Program-made: the position numbers and the translations under genes
Part shown: positions 12,409-18,647 of the stretch, one piece after another
Position numbering within the stretch: the stretch's first letter is position 1
How the letters are laid out: every line of letters starts with the position of its first letter
Virus record (IMG/VR): IMGVR_UViG_3300031857_013798
Coordinates: 124,001-188,000 of that record
DNA from: a virus
Length of the DNA: 64,000 nucleotides
Direction: 5' to 3' (one strand)
Notes under the pieces: model-generated
The model's input: only the letters and a program-made list of their open reading frames with translations
Databases searched by the model: none
Told to the model about the DNA's origin: nothing

Positions 12409-12570
12409 GTGCTCAATCCCATAAAAAAACTACAAGAAAATCTAGCCCGAGACTTGGTCAGTCTGGAGGACACAGACTTGGTGTCGGAACAACAACTAGA
12501 CAAAATTACTGATGCATACGCACAAGTGTATGACATCATCTCCAAAGCAGTTGACAAGCCCAAAGAATAA
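12409..12570 (+). CDS. hypothetical protein, 53 aa, GTG start
   Basis: The frame is open from a GTG placed exactly where the late motif predicts a start; the nearby ATG at 12407 leads to an early stop. The peptide is acidic and helical (KKLQENLARDLVSLEDTDL). Support is moderate: open frame, motif spacing and a helical amphipathic pattern. Confidence 0.5.
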   Translation: MLNPIKKLQENLARDLVSLEDTDLVSEQQLDKITDAYAQVYDIISKAVDKPKE

Positions 12571-12573
12571 ATA
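12568..12573 (+). promoter_or_regulatory. candidate late promoter before the tmRNA acceptor piece
   Basis: AATAAATA overlaps the preceding stop codon; a start of transcription would fall near 12580, close to the predicted 5' end of the tmRNA acceptor piece. Confidence 0.4.
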
Positions 12574-12579
12574 TATACT

Positions 12580-12650
12580 GCGAGTTATTGCTGTATGAAG
12601 CCGAGAGAAAAGTGTTCTGGACGGGGGTGCGAATCCCCCCAGGTCCACCA
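12580..12650 (+). ncRNA. ssrA: tmRNA, acceptor piece of a split, permuted ssrA
   Basis: This piece ends GGGGG-TGCGAAT-CCCCC (T arm, 12623-12639), CAGGTCC (12640-12646), A, CCA. CAGGTCC pairs over 7 bp with GGGCCTG at 12866-12872, including a third-position G-U pair, the alanine-tRNA-synthetase identity element also present in tmRNA. The acceptor half therefore comes before the coding half, as in the two-piece tmRNAs of alphaproteobacteria, cyanobacteria and some betaproteobacteria. The 5' end at about 12580 is a guess. Together the pieces would rescue stalled ribosomes with SmpB. Confidence 0.8.
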
Positions 12651-12662
12651 TAAGGAAGTTTA

Positions 12663-12773
12663 ATGATAGGTTATGTTTTATTTTTGTTATTTTGGTTAGT
12701 GTTTGGTGTATTTTATTTTACACGTGATACCACATTGGACGAAGAGAAAATAAAAAACTGTGAGTTATGGTAA
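12663..12773 (+). CDS. membrane microprotein between the two tmRNA pieces, 36 aa
   Basis: AAGGA lies 7 bases before the ATG. The first 20 residues are hydrophobic (VLFLLFWLVFGVFYF), followed by a charged tail (DTTLDEEKIKNCELW). It lies wholly inside the 215-nt gap between tmRNA pieces, so any continuous precursor would also be an mRNA. Confidence 0.55.
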   Translation: MIGYVLFLLFWLVFGVFYFTRDTTLDEEKIKNCELW

Positions 12774-12774
12774 T

Positions 12775-12852
12775 ATGGAAAATTTAGCAAAATTTTTATT
12801 AATTGTTTTTCCAATATTATGCTTGTTGTTAACAACATTAAGCGTAGATTAA
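12775..12852 (+). CDS. membrane microprotein, 25 aa
   Basis: It starts 2 nt after the preceding stop. After MENLAKF it is a single hydrophobic segment (LLIVFPILCLLLTTL). Length makes it uncertain, but the tandem arrangement with another membrane microprotein supports it. Confidence 0.4.
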   Translation: MENLAKFLLIVFPILCLLLTTLSVD

Positions 12853-12865
12853 GTTTCTTTATGAT

Positions 12866-13051
12866 GGGCCTGACCTAGATTCGACAGGGCAAAGAGTAAC
12901 AGAGTGGACAGCACGGTAGGCGATGACCGTAAATCAAGCAAAACTTTTATCTGCAAATGATGAAAAATTCTTGATGGCCGCTTAAGGTCGTCTAGGGTAG
13001 GAAATACCTCGTAACAGAAACCACCAAAATGGCTGCGAAAGTAGCCATTTT
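12866..13051 (+). ncRNA. ssrA: tmRNA, coding piece of a split, permuted ssrA
   Basis: GGGCCTGACCTAGATTCGAC at 12866-12885 matches the conserved tmRNA 5' end. The tag frame 12953-12985 encodes ANDEKFLMAA and a TAA stop, ending in the protease signal LMAA-like tail and close to the betaproteobacterial ANDE-type tags. No CCA end follows; instead a 9-bp hairpin (13026-13051) and a T run close the piece. Its acceptor strand pairs with the piece at 12640-12646. Confidence 0.85.
13026..13051 (+). terminator. hairpin ending the tmRNA coding piece
   Basis: AAAATGGCT (13026-13034) and AGCCATTTT (13043-13051) pair perfectly around an 8-nt loop. It may be a terminator or the 3' processing structure. Confidence 0.55.
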
Positions 13052-13053
13052 CT

Positions 13054-13083
13054 TTGACATTCTCAGTGTTTGTGCTATATAAT
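13054..13083 (+). promoter_or_regulatory. sigma70-type promoter of the porin
   Basis: TTGACA, 18 nt, TATAAT, directly after the tmRNA hairpin. Confidence 0.75.
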
Positions 13084-13131: not shown

Positions 13132-14022
13132 ATGAAGAAAGTTCTAATTGCGTTGACCCTGGCAGTTGCTGGTGTTGCAAGCGCACAAGTTGGTATCTAT
13201 GGTCGTGTTGGCACTTACCTTGACAACACCAAAACTGGTGCTTCCACCGTGCAAGGCATGGCCAATGACTTGAGTCACTTTGGCATTCGTGCTACTGAAA
13301 ACTTAGGTGGCGGATTAACAGCTCGTGCCACATACGAGACCGGCATCCAAGCCAACAGCCCAGACACTGGTACTGACACTAGACTTGGCGATCGCCAAAG
13401 CACCGTGGGTATTGCTCACAAAATGGGTAGCGTTGATCTTGGTCGCAATGTTCACACTCACTTCTTGGCCATCAGCGACAATGATCCATTTGGCACATTG
13501 ATTGGTAGCTCAGCTGCCGACGTGCATAACCTGCGTGGTTTGCGTTTGAGCAATGCCGCTTTCACTTCTGTGAACTTTGGCAATGTCTCTGCTAACTTTG
13601 ATCGTAGCACTGGTGCTGTTGGCACTGCCGCTGATCCTTATGCCGCATCCGTGATTGCCGCAGTTGGACCTGCTGTGTTGACTTATGCTCGTTACGAAGC
13701 TGGCGCAGAAACCAGTGACGTGTTGGCTGCTCGTGCTAAATTTGGTGCAACCACTGTGTTTGCCAGCGCAAGCGACAACAAAGGCGTTGCTGCCAACACC
13801 AACCGTGCTCAGTTGGTCGGCGTGGCACACAAACTTGGTGGACCAGTCACAGTGAAGGCCAGCTATGGTCGCATTGAAAATGGCATCAAGAGTTACAACG
13901 TAGGTGCTGAGTATGCTTTCAGCAAAAAGACCTATGCACAAGTTTTGTATCGTACAGTTGAGGGAACCTCAGCAGCCACTGATGTCAAACAAGTAGCAGG
14001 CGGGTTGGTCGTACAGTTCTAA
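13132..14022 (+). CDS. betaproteobacterial-type outer membrane porin
   Basis: The 296-residue protein starts with a signal peptide (MKKVLIALTLAVAGVASAQ, cleavage after ASA) and continues VGIYGRVGTYLD, the typical first strand of Gram-negative porins of betaproteobacteria. Alternating polar and aromatic residues run throughout, and it ends in a terminal Phe (VVQF), the outer-membrane insertion signal. AAGGA precedes the ATG, and a strong terminator follows. A porin is rare in a phage: it could change host permeability, block receptors against rival phages, or be a captured host gene. Confidence 0.9.
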   Translation: MKKVLIALTLAVAGVASAQVGIYGRVGTYLDNTKTGASTVQGMANDLSHFGIRATENLGGGLTARATYETGIQANSPDTGTDTRLGDRQSTVGIAHKMGSVDLGRNVHTHFLAISDNDPFGTLIGSSAADVHNLRGLRLSNAAFTSVNFGNVSANFDRSTGAVGTAADPYAASVIAAVGPAVLTYARYEAGAETSDVLAARAKFGATTVFASASDNKGVAANTNRAQLVGVAHKLGGPVTVKASYGRIENGIKSYNVGAEYAFSKKTYAQVLYRTVEGTSAATDVKQVAGGLVVQF

Positions 14023-14176: not shown

Positions 14177-14205
14177 TTGACCAGTAAAGCAGGAGATGCT
14201 ATACT
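14177..14205 (+). promoter_or_regulatory. sigma70-type promoter for a structured-RNA unit
   Basis: TTGACC-17 nt-TATACT with TGC before the -10. The sequence after the -10 repeats that of the promoter at 14079. Confidence 0.75.
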
Positions 14206-14273
14206 AGAGACTAGTTAGAAAACAAAGGCAGTTGATCGAAACTACTTTGAAGTTCGTTAAAAATTTAATTTTG

Positions 14274-14306
14274 TATAGTGCCCCAGATTAAGTTCTGGGC
14301 ACTATA
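14274..14306 (+). repeat. strong hairpin upstream of a structured RNA
   Basis: TATAGTGCCCCAGA pairs with TCTGGGCACTATA with one bulged C, around a 6-nt loop. It may end the RNA started at about 14212. Confidence 0.65.
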
Positions 14307-14309
14307 TGT

Positions 14310-14524
14310 AAACACATTAGGGTTACCTAGTCCGTTAGGGGTGAACAAAGGCTGATTCGAGCCGGATACCCATGAAGCAGGAGGGCCTAAGAGTAGCGCG
14401 AGACACCATCGAGCGTGAGGGATAAGGCTACACCAAACTCCAGGAAGGCGGCGGAACTACTGGGCCTGTAATGAGGTCTTGATGCAAGTTGGTGATGCGT
14501 GTCAAGAACTTCCCTAATGTGTTT
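14310..14524 (+). ncRNA. structured RNA of about 215 nt, unassigned
   Basis: A 13-bp perfect stem, AAACACATTAGGG (14310-14322) with CCCTAATGTGTTT (14512-14524), closes a region full of short complementary segments and without an open frame. An inner hairpin TCTTGA/TCAAGA lies near the 3' end. No known RNA family was recognised. It sits immediately before tRNA-Glu, so it may be processed from the tRNA precursor. Confidence 0.6.
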
Positions 14525-14540
14525 TCATATAGTGAACTAT

Positions 14541-15089: not shown

Positions 15090-15538
15090 CAAGTTTGAAG
15101 CCACATCGCCTGGACACTTCCTCGCAAGAGCACTAGGTCCTGCAACCGTGGCTTCTCCCCGACGTTCCGCTTGGTTAGCGGATACTGTGACCCGCAGGAT
15201 AAGAAGTGAGGTGACTCTCAAGGGTGGTAGTCTTCTTACCGAAAGGCCGTTAGCAACACGATAGCGGTCCCTGTCGGGAAGCGGGTGGAAGGTGTGTGAG
15301 AATTGCGGGGCAACCCAAGAGATGATGCACTACAATTACCGCCGGGGGATGCAGAGCAACTAATTTTCCTGATGCTGGGCAGGACAAGGCCCAGCAGTCC
15401 TATCCCAAGGATCACCTGAGCCAGAACTCAGGGCCGATGAGCATCGCAAGCCCTACCACGGGTGCCGATGGACGATAAATTGGGAAGCAGTAGTTAGCAG
15501 TGGGAGGATTTGATTTTCAAATCCGAACTTTTAGTTTT
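15090..15538 (+). ncRNA. large structured RNA, unassigned
   Basis: About 450 nt, GC-richer than the coding DNA around it, with no long open frame. Nested stems can be seen: GAAGCCAC (15097-15104) with GTGGCTTC (15148-15155), CCCGAC (15158-15163) with GTCGGG (15273-15278), and a terminal GGATTTGA/TCAAATCC hairpin followed by T-rich sequence. Size and place beside phage tRNAs recall the ROOL and GOLLD classes, but I cannot match a consensus. With the next element it forms a unit of about 600 nt. Confidence 0.6.
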
Positions 15539-15688
15539 TATAGTCAAGCACCGATAAAGGTATCGTGTAAGGACGCTTACGCTATTCGGGTCCAACCGGC
15601 CGGGAACGGATCCTAATATAACTGCTATCGGCTATTGCACTCTTAGCGGAGGACGCATAAATTGAGCATCTCTCGGTGCTTGACTATA
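15539..15688 (+). ncRNA. RNA domain closed by a perfect 16-bp stem
   Basis: TATAGTCAAGCACCGA (15539-15554) is the exact reverse complement of 15673-15688. The interior has further hairpins (GATA/TATC and GGACGC... near 15570). It may be the 3' domain of the RNA starting at 15090 or a separate molecule; it ends 5 bp before the ketoacyl synthase stop codon on the other strand. Confidence 0.65.
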
Positions 15689-15692
15689 GAAT

Positions 15693-16664
15693 CTATTCAA
15701 TGTCAATTTGGCAAAAACTGTTTTTGCCGCCAAATCCAAAATTGGCCTTGAGTATGCGTTTGCCCGGAAACGGCACAGCATCTACGATGATCCTTGAATC
15801 TTTGACTATGAGATCACCAGCTAACACATTGGGTCTTAGGGTTTTTGCACGGTAATCGTCAAAACTCATGCACATTTCAATGGCGCCGCTGGCTGAGATA
15901 CAGTGCCCTATGCGGCTTTTGTAGCTGACAATAGGTATGTCTTTGTGAACTAAAGAATTAAAAACATTGTACTCAAATTGATCTCCCACTGGAGTGCCTG
16001 TTGCATGTGCATTCCAAAAATCAATGGTGTCAAAATTGATGCCAGAAATATCTCTGGCCAATTGGTGCGCATCACCTGGATTGGCTATGAGTGTGGGGTT
16101 GGTACGAAAGATATAATTGCTGATTGTGGCAAATGCACTCATGTTGAATTTTACACTTGGATGTTTTATCAACATTGCAGCCATGCCTCTACCCATTCGA
16201 AATCCAGTACTGGTTGAGTCAAATGCTCTTCCTGAGGATTGATCCAATGCACCCATACTGGCAAATCGCCACATGTGAAGTTCGTCATCAACTAAATTAT
16301 CAGCACAAAAAACAATCACTGGTAATTGGTGTTGCAAGCTCACCATGGATGCAGTGTACAAGGCATGCATGCTTCCACTGCATTCTGCTACCACATTCGT
16401 AACAAATCCGTTGAGATGCAATTTTGTTGCCACAAGACTGACCAAGGCGTCAATGGTACTGTTCCTAAGTTCAGTAGGACGTCCTCGTTTTTTATTGAGC
16501 TCAAAAAAGTCTCGGCTGGGTTTATTTGTTGGTATCAATCCTCCTTTGGAAGAAGTTACCATTGGCCAGTGTGGCTGAACAATGTTTGCTAGACATGTGC
16601 TATCAACGAATTGTTCAATGTTCCAGTCGAGACTGTGGTGATAGGTTAAGATTTCAGTGATCAT
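15693..16664 (-). CDS. beta-ketoacyl synthase family protein
   Basis: The 323-residue protein carries a Cys-containing nucleophile elbow AECSGSMHAL (residues 89-98), the first His in NAHATGTPVGD and the second in SRIGHCISASG, the Cys-His-His triad of KAS enzymes. GFGGKNSF near the end matches the C-terminal glycine motif. It is shorter than typical FabF (about 410 aa), mainly at the N-terminus. Such enzymes perform decarboxylative Claisen condensation in fatty-acid or polyketide assembly. No carrier protein or malonyl transferase is visible. The start follows a TAAGTA late motif. Confidence 0.85.
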   Translation of the reverse strand: MITEILTYHHSLDWNIEQFVDSTCLANIVQPHWPMVTSSKGGLIPTNKPSRDFFELNKKRGRPTELRNSTIDALVSLVATKLHLNGFVTNVVAECSGSMHALYTASMVSLQHQLPVIVFCADNLVDDELHMWRFASMGALDQSSGRAFDSTSTGFRMGRGMAAMLIKHPSVKFNMSAFATISNYIFRTNPTLIANPGDAHQLARDISGINFDTIDFWNAHATGTPVGDQFEYNVFNSLVHKDIPIVSYKSRIGHCISASGAIEMCMSFDDYRAKTLRPNVLAGDLIVKDSRIIVDAVPFPGKRILKANFGFGGKNSFCQIDIE

Positions 16665-16676: not shown

Positions 16677-16755
16677 TTTGCCCACTGTAACACGACTGCA
16701 GAAAACTGTTACAGACTATTTTGGATAGATAAACAACAAATTTATCCAAAACTGT

Positions 16756-16784
16756 TTGACAACAAAAGACGTTTGTCTTACAAT
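16756..16784 (+). promoter_or_regulatory. strong sigma70-type promoter of a large RNA
   Basis: TTGACA-17 nt-TACAAT. Transcription would start near 16791, with no credible reading frame downstream. Confidence 0.85.
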
Positions 16785-16790
16785 AGATAC

Positions 16791-17698
16791 ATAGGGCAGT
16801 TTATTGTCCTGTGCAGTATGGTTCGCCCAGCTGTACGAAGAATAACTGGGGTGACCCAGCCAAAGGATGTATGCCTACATAAGTCCGCCAGCAATGGTTC
16901 ATGTAAACAAGCCTGCTCAGGTCCGTGAGGATCCGATCACTGATAAGACCGGTGGTTGTAACAATGACGCTGGGAGTATAGGAAAGAGCTGTAACTTACC
17001 GGCCCGCAAGGGTAACCGGAGTTGCAGAAAAGTAACAGGTGGTGCTGACTTCTATACAAAACCAGCCCAGTTAATTGGTATGAGAAAGGGTAGCGTATCG
17101 GTCCGAGGGGTTGCACCCAAGGGCTCGTATGCAGTTTGAGTGGTTGGTGGAGGTACGCGAAAGCCGAGACCCGACACTGATCGCAAAAGACGTCTGAGTA
17201 GTTCGCAAGACAAAAGGAACGTGGTGTGTTGTATTTTGTATTCCAAAAGAGTATGAAGCAACTGAGTCAGCACATCGCAGTAGGTTGATATAGCTCATCG
17301 TAGAGCAATTCCCTGTTAAGGAATAGGCTGTGGCTTCAAAACCACTATCTAACATAAAAGCAAAGACTGACTCGGTCATGTGTGAAAAGTATCTAATGCT
17401 GTAGCCGCAAGGCAATACAGTCAGACGTAACTCGCAAGGTGAAATCTGTTTATACTGGAAGTTTCGTAACTGTTTAGCGACAGTGAATGGCTCTAAAGGT
17501 CAACGGGATAGATGGTGTAGAGTAGCATGTGATGACAAGACTACTGCCTGTCTTTAAAAACGGCGATACTGGTAACAGACTGTGATACATAGCAATATGG
17601 TTGCAGTGGAAATCGGAAGAAAGCAGACTCGCAAGGTTTGTAATAATGTCCGAGGTGTTACTGGGTTAGGATGTATTCTCAGTCCGCCACTTTATATA
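16791..17698 (+). ncRNA. large structured RNA of about 900 nt, GOLLD-like candidate, with embedded tRNA-like domain
   Basis: Nine hundred bases with a dedicated promoter, dense short complementary runs and no convincing open frame. At 17284-17353 it contains a tRNA-like module: D arm GCTC/GAGC, anticodon arm ATTCC-CTGTTAA-GGAAT (GTT, Asn) and a GTGG/CCAC arm, with an imperfect acceptor and no CCA. GOLLD RNAs are about 800-900 nt, occur beside tRNAs in phages and lake metagenomes, and can include a tRNA, so the resemblance in size and setting is strong. I cannot confirm the family by consensus. The 3' end at about 17698 is approximate. Confidence 0.65.
17284..17353 (+). tRNA. tRNA-like domain (GTT, Asn-like) inside the large RNA
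   Basis: D, anticodon and T arms can be drawn; GTTGATA pairs with TATC-T-AAC with one bulge. No CCA is encoded. A separate normal tRNA-Asn exists at 18572, so this is probably a structural domain. Confidence 0.4.
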
Positions 17699-17699
17699 C

Positions 17700-17767
17700 A
17701 AACGCACTCCGTACCCGTTGGTGGTTGCTCAATTCAATGAATTGTTCCCCAAGCATAGAGTGTGTTT
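17700..17767 (+). ncRNA. small hairpin RNA of the GAGTGTGTT family (a)
   Basis: AAACGCACTC and GAGTGTGTTT pair over 10 bp (one G-T), with an inner AATTCAATGAATT hairpin. The same closing strand recurs at 18262 and 20485. Confidence 0.5.
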
Positions 17768-17772
17768 CTATA

Positions 17773-17778
17773 TAAATA
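17773..17778 (+). promoter_or_regulatory. consensus late promoter before tRNA-fMet
   Basis: TATAAATA at 17771-17778 is the exact T4 late -10 consensus; 7 nt separate it from the tRNA 5' end. Confidence 0.6.
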
Positions 17779-17785
17779 ATTCAAT

Positions 17786-17860
17786 CGCGGGGTACGTCAG
17801 CGGTAGACCACCAGGCTCATAACCTGGGAGACGGAGGTTCGATTCCTTCCCCCGCAACCA
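17786..17860 (+). tRNA. initiator tRNA-fMet (CAT)
   Basis: CGCGGGG faces CCCCGCA, leaving the C1-A72 mismatch that marks initiators, and it ends AACCA. The anticodon stem is CCAGG/CCTGG around CTCATAA, so one of the three conserved initiator G-C pairs (29-41) is A-T. Confidence 0.92.
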
Positions 17861-17896
17861 ATTCAGCCGAAAGGCTAAATAACTTTAACACAGTGG

Positions 17897-17925
17897 TTGA
17901 CCTCAAAAGGTAAATACTGTACAAT
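17897..17925 (+). promoter_or_regulatory. sigma70-type promoter of a microprotein
   Basis: TTGACC-17 nt-TACAAT. The first ATG is 7 nt after the -10 box. Confidence 0.8.
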
Positions 17926-18571: not shown

Positions 18572-18647
18572 TCCCTAGTAGCACAGCGGTAGTTGCACTT
18601 GACTGTTAATCAAGGTGTCCGTGGTTCGATCCCACGCTGGGGAGCCA
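18572..18647 (+). tRNA. tRNA-Asn (GTT)
   Basis: TCCCTAG/CTGGGGA acceptor, anticodon loop CTGTTAA, T loop TTCGATC, discriminator G, encoded CCA. Confidence 0.92.

Follow-up and report, generated by a model that had tools for sequence, protein, structure and literature searches.

A phage GOLLD RNA gene whose linker holds a predicted, exchangeable and probably non-translating tRNA mimic

Introduction

The GOLLD RNA family (Rfam RF02032) is already known, as are its cage and the occurrence of tRNAs in its linkers. Cryo-EM of GOLLD env-38 showed a closed, RNA-only cage made of 14 copies, with the linker inside, and the authors of that work noted that tRNAs are sometimes present in the linker (PMC12286853). 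ROOL is likewise a large phage RNA that occurs near tRNA islands and forms cages (PMC12286853). In Mycobacterium, a GOLLD encoded within a tRNA cluster contains a pseudo-tRNA; Northern analysis gave a signal for the GOLLD and none for the pseudo-tRNA within it (PMC6582537). Other phage RNAs with a tRNA fold have been linked to defence, phages having been proposed to answer tRNA-cleaving defences with tRNAs (PMC10264068). With the cage structure solved, and the function and cargo of GOLLD not known, any recurrent module in the linker offers a testable clue.

Here we describe a GOLLD locus in the window, by which we mean the whole 64,000-nt stretch of viral DNA analysed (IMG/VR record IMGVR_UViG_3300031857_013798). 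It shares with RF02032 and env-38 a 3′ domain matched at full length, a variable 5′ domain, a length of ~900 nt, a phage genome, a tRNA-island setting and a tRNA in the linker. It differs from RF02032 in that its 5′ domain is conserved among near relatives only and is absent from the Rfam model. In contrast to the env-38 report, in which linker tRNAs are found only sometimes, the module is nearly universal in the window's subfamily, where it is acceptor-truncated and exchanged between scaffolds. The Mycobacterium GOLLD is comparable in that tRNA genes surround it as a cluster and a pseudo-tRNA lies within it, and it is expressed; it belongs to an actinobacterial genome, and we liken it by description, not by sequence (PMC6582537).

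Results

The locus is a GOLLD RNA gene within a tRNA array

The window contains an array of 30 tRNAs and a permuted tmRNA, as called by ARAGORN. The earlier note, made from the DNA letters, had placed in this array a GOLLD-like RNA of about 900 nt and named Infernal searches with the GOLLD and ROOL models as a check. The GOLLD model was matched over its full length (model positions 1–416 of 416) with 204.1 bits, well above the curated gathering cut-off of 150, while the ROOL model gave zero matches in 16700–17900, even at E up to 10. This was the one GOLLD in the whole 286,229-bp virus record containing the window; a Terminase_6N marker search of the same record found nothing. On the strength of the model match, the locus is almost certainly a phage member of the family.

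The own sigma70 promoter proposed in the earlier note was recovered as a promoter-like sequence with 11 of 12 consensus matches (Table 1). Its position predicts a transcript start at about 16790–16794, close to the 16791 given there. In eight relatives (L102, L108, L112, L114, L126, L128, L139 and L146) a −10 element likewise lies some 425–444 nt before the 3′ domain, and a GGGNNG hairpin homologous to that predicted at the 5′ terminus occupied the same place in L102, L105, L108, L133, L134, L139, L140 and L146. From the promoter to the conserved 3′ end, at about 17685–17690, the predicted transcript measures ~895 nt and is structured across its 5′ and 3′ domains. No terminator was called between the GOLLD and the tRNA-Met downstream, and the GOLLD 3′ end is therefore probably made by processing. 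These data show a GOLLD RNA gene of ~900 nt, as a predicted transcript, within a tRNA array and behind its own promoter-like sequence.

Table 1. Features of the GOLLD locus, in window coordinates
Feature	Position	Strand	Remarks
sigma70-type promoter, TTGACA-17-TACAAT	16756-16784	+	11/12 consensus matches
5′-terminal hairpin (GGGCAG...)	16790-16813	+	predicted fold
GOLLD 5′ domain, beyond Rfam model	16840-17220	+	covariation in alignment A2
GOLLD conserved 3′ domain, RF02032	17221-17685	+	204.1 bits, full model
Linker-closing helix, 5′ strand UGAGUCAG	17263-17270	+	pairs with 17367-17374
tRNA-like linker module	17284-17354	+	RF00005 50.6 bits; no CCA, bulged acceptor stem
Linker-closing helix, 3′ strand CUGACUCG	17367-17374	+	pairs with 17263-17270
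tRNA-Met(CAU), nearest downstream feature	17786-17860	+	

The 5′ domain is structured and covaries

Between the promoter and the RF02032 match lie ~430 nt of 5′ domain. Searches by blastn with this part returned near relatives only, most other relatives being matched only from about 17185 on. Folding of the 912-nt stretch gave a z-score of −3.8, and none of 20 shuffled sequences was equally stable. An alignment of 22 sequences from near relatives (A2; 16840–17230, mean column identity 77%) was analysed with RNAalifold, which proposed 106 pairs, 65 of them with compensatory, two-sided changes. The structure was paired in 98.7% of cells, a percentage that is favoured by its derivation from the same alignment; slid partners gave ~40%, and 0 of 500 shuffles reached any of the measures. 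The number of two-sided changes, 65 as against 38 in shuffled A2, is the safer measure.

No frame was convincing, as the note had also judged. In most of 21 relatives a 90-aa open reading frame at 16867–17139 lacked its start and was interrupted by stops or frameshifts; a minus-strand frame was likewise not conserved. The dense stems of the earlier description are borne out by the fold and by the strong covariation of the 5′ domain. Together with the promoter position kept in several relatives, this covariation supports one RNA running from about 16790 to 17690.

Relatives of the locus are mainly phage-borne

Relatives were collected with DNA from the start of the GOLLD 3′ domain, outside the linker, so that they were not selected for linker content. 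This search pattern returned 61 viral contigs, 57 of which match RF02032; with DSS3_MAL1 included, the model was matched in 58 of 62 records, 56 of them above the cut-off. Clustering at 95% identity left 46 distinct RNAs, namely that of the window and 45 relatives. A second motif, AAAGGTGTAATCTCAG, was rejected as a GOLLD marker: it occurred in 38 viral contigs, none of them with GOLLD, and this noise served as a control.

One bacterial contig, from Achromobacter anxifer, carries a GOLLD of 165.3 bits with a permuted tmRNA and tRNAs. Within the order of this species, GOLLD was found in 1 of 399 genomes, that of Achromobacter anxifer itself. GOLLD of the window's type is therefore mainly phage-borne.

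In the phage collection, DSS3_MAL1 was the single relative detectable at the DNA level. Going by its name, it is presumably a phage of Ruegeria pomeroyi DSS-3. Its GOLLD (MN602268; 160.5 bits) likewise has a tRNA-like linker module and an adjoining permuted tmRNA. It differs in that it comes from an isolated 150-kb phage, that its module has the anticodon UCU, and that GOLLD and tmRNA adjoin directly, whereas in the window they are ~4 kb apart. The annotated tRNA-Arg of this phage, MAL1_00018 (L002 6059–6134; MN602268.1 7479–7554), is the GOLLD linker module and so is probably no free tRNA gene. Phage tRNA annotations can thus be GOLLD linkers.

The tRNA fold of the linker is maintained by compensatory change

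The alignment to the GOLLD model puts the tRNA-like part in the variable linker. In the window, its anticodon loop reads CUGUUAA, with an Asn-like GUU anticodon at 17315–17317. ARAGORN did not call this module as a tRNA in the window, but called a linker tRNA in 36 of the 46 distinct RNAs. The tRNA-like fold was present in 44 of the 46, the exceptions being L116, without a tRNA, and L150, with a truncated one.

Alignment of 42 modules gave 27 pairs with 96.5% of cells paired and two-sided changes in 23 pairs; 0 of 500 shuffles did as well, and slid partners gave 29–44%. The helix that closes the linker showed compensatory changes in seven of its eight pairs, with 98.8% of cells paired. In these modules the closing helix, inner acceptor, D, anticodon and T stems were paired in 95–99% of cells, and the anticodon arm and elbow are the parts that are kept. 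The fold is retained while linker sequences diverge to about 60% identity. Across the subfamily, then, the alignments show a predicted tRNA fold that has been maintained through compensatory change.

The acceptor end is truncated

Closer to the acceptor end, the modules depart from array tRNAs. Positions 4–7 of the acceptor were paired in 98–100% of modules, and positions 1–3 in 45–60%, as against 94–99% of array tRNAs. Acceptor GC content was 27% in modules and 67% in array tRNAs. A CCA end was encoded in three of the 36 called modules, compared with 526 of the 540 tRNAs in the arrays of these loci, and all seven acceptor pairs were present in five modules. Compared with a functional tRNA(Asn), the window module has a cloverleaf recognised by the tRNA model but neither the 7-bp acceptor stem nor the CCA end. 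Its acceptor strands, GUUGAUA/UAUCUAA, form five of seven pairs without a bulge, a bulged U restoring the remainder, and its 3′ side reads ACAUAAAA. The Asn-like tRNA module of the earlier note is therefore present, as an acceptor-truncated mimic and not as an ordinary tRNA gene. By this comparison of predicted folds, features needed for translation (a 7-bp acceptor stem and a CCA end) are absent from most members of the subfamily, and the module very probably does not function as an elongator tRNA.

An origin of the modules as recent captures of array tRNAs was ruled out, since they are closer to each other (mean best identity 84%) than to any array tRNA (68%).

Modules are exchanged between scaffolds

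Several pairs of RNAs share a scaffold and differ in the linker. In L124 and L148 the 3′-domain scaffold outside the linker is 100% identical and the 5′ domain nearly so, while the linkers are 62% identical and their anticodons differ, one being GUU and the other UUU (Asn to Lys). The window and L146 have scaffolds of 97.5% and linkers of 73% identity, and L118 and L120 resemble L124 and L148 in combining a similar scaffold with differing linkers. The reverse case also occurs, with scaffolds of 81% and linkers of 97% for the window and L134, and of 79% and 97% for L105 and L130; counting L108 and L148, such pairs have modules 91–97% alike in scaffolds of 72–81%. Trees of linker and scaffold were mutually rejected in AU tests. 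These comparisons of aligned sequences show that modules have been exchanged between scaffolds.

Exchange is not a property of the linker alone, an idea that was ruled out because mosaicism extends to the 5′ domain. Its blocks correlated with the rest of the RNA at 0.27–0.56, compared with 0.26 for the linker and 0.52–0.76 for the other 3′-domain blocks. The pattern is therefore modular recombination of the phage RNA, as read from these alignments, with the linker one clear module among others.

To our knowledge, and within the part of the earlier GOLLD literature that was covered, an acceptor-truncated, covarying and exchangeable module across a GOLLD subfamily has not been described.

A possible role for the tRNA mimic

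The best overall explanation, to which we assign a probability of roughly 0.8, is that the locus is a GOLLD RNA gene with a non-translating, exchangeable tRNA mimic, which would be caged and act as ligand or bait. By homology with env-38, the window's RNA is likely to form an RNA-only cage of some 14 copies, whose lumen would contain the linker and hence the tRNA mimic. The mimic would supply no tRNA for decoding; it may instead recruit a partner that recognises tRNAs, either to the cage or into it. Such partners could be host tRNA-cleaving defence nucleases, which would be sequestered, or ribosomes and other tRNA-binding factors. The presence of a tRNA mimic in nearly every linker of the subfamily points to such a partner, although for a ligand or bait role of any kind we put the chances at about even.

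A decoy for tRNA-targeting immunity in particular is a more doubtful proposition. Among the nucleases concerned, AriB of PARIS cleaves Lys-UUU, Thr-UGU and Asn-GUU (PMC12409363), and Cas13a cuts U-rich anticodons (PMC11042736). The window's clade has mostly Asn-GUU and Lys-UUU loops and in this may be likened to the defence-evading phage tRNAs; those, however, are working replacements (PMC10264068), whereas the linker module, tethered within a large RNA, has no acceptor end of the canonical kind. In raw counts, NUU anticodons occurred in 24 of 40 modules and 50 of 540 array tRNAs. The bias is bound to one clade (21 of 22 among the window's near relatives, 3 of 22 elsewhere), and its significance was lost once modules were clustered at 75–80% identity. 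NUU enrichment was accordingly dropped as proof of a decoy, and the decoy idea, like any link of the module to defence, is offered as a hypothesis, not a result.

In its broadest form the proposal would be one of modular display by the GOLLD cages of huge phages, in which a constant RNA shell holds a non-chargeable lumenal mimic that is swapped by recombination to match changing tRNA-recognising host factors. In its sharpest form, these factors would be tRNA-cleaving immune nucleases, baited and sequestered by the cage. We regard this proposal as speculative and rather unlikely. The natural pairs with the same scaffold and different modules could be used to compare partners.

Of the alternatives, docking on ribosomes or translation factors, for hibernation or tRNA sensing and not for defence, would survive best, and we hold it as a tentative possibility. 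Co-purification of GOLLD with ribosomes in pull-downs (cited in PMC12286853) and retention of the anticodon arm and elbow are consistent with it, but the anticodon loops are varied and even depart from 7 nt, which speaks against codon reading.

The module might otherwise play no part itself, being a passive spacer or a decayed tRNA caught in the linker. It is in the linker that GOLLD varies, and the cryo-EM structure showed this part as disordered (PMC12286853); L116 moreover has no tRNA, and L150 a truncated one. Decay or mere spacing is, however, at odds with a module in 44 of the 46 RNAs, with compensatory change in 16 of the 18 D, anticodon, T and inner acceptor pairs, and with a fold kept despite the divergence of its sequence. 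Covariation in the alignments already disfavours this reading, and we consider it unlikely.

Less probable again is a working tRNA-Asn freed by RNase P, which would make GOLLD partly a tRNA precursor and give the phage decoding capacity. The score of 50.6 bits, the ARAGORN calls in 36 of 46 RNAs and the five modules with complete acceptor pairing would fit this model. Against it, the CCA end is missing from 33 of the 36 called modules, outer acceptor positions are paired in only about half, and L127, L144 and L151 have anticodon loops that measure 6 or 8 nt. The window's array also has its own tRNA-Asn(GUU), at 18572–18647, and the linker's anticodon is already encoded by the array in 19 of 41 loci, the window included. 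The Mycobacterium pseudo-tRNA inside GOLLD, moreover, went undetected (PMC6582537).

The possibility that coding sequence or a degenerate tRNA array occupies this stretch, instead of a single RNA, can practically be dismissed: frames of 87 and 90 aa do overlap the 5′ part, but they are broken in relatives, the coding reading being ruled out by their lack of conservation, and GOLLD is matched over the full model and the whole 5′ domain covaries.

We favour the caged, non-translating mimic. Covariance support for the GOLLD reading, sought in the earlier note, was strong in both the linker module and the 5′ domain.

Other features of the neighbourhood

A second structured RNA of ~200 nt was found in the tRNA array at 15157–15361 (+). 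It has no Rfam match. Its motif occurs in at least 119 IMG/VR loci and, among the matches listed, lies within 3 kb of tRNAs in 117 of 120; none was found in isolated phages or PLSDB plasmids. An alignment of 29 sequences (A3) gave 39 pairs, 17 with compensatory changes. The RNA, present in only 3 of the 46 GOLLD loci, probably represents a new family.

Two further stretches were recorded. One, at 14225–14540 (+), is unannotated and structured-looking, lies behind a promoter TTGACC-17-TATACT (14177–14205), and has 75% identity to DNA that precedes the GOLLD of L108–L110. The other, at 15541–15690 (+), is a domain of ~150 nt with a long perfect closing stem formed by TATAGTCAAGCACCGA with TCGGTGCTTGACTATA. 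Two virus contigs (149,596 and 364,404 bp) that are identical to the window here both stop at 15565, within this domain.

The permuted two-piece tmRNA lies at 12558–13076 (+) and matches RF04321 with 115 bits, its tag being ANDEKFLMAA (ARAGORN). A permuted tmRNA was also found near GOLLD in DSS3_MAL1, L130 and the Achromobacter contig (L162). A Gram-negative porin gene, an unusual phage cargo, lies in the window at 13132–14022 (+; Porin_4, E 2.8e-25) behind a perfect 12/12 sigma70 promoter at 13054–13083. Directly upstream of GOLLD, and divergent from it, is a beta-ketoacyl synthase-like gene at 15693–16664 (−). Elsewhere, the window carries radical SAM, Nol-like carbamoyltransferase and asparagine synthase-like genes.
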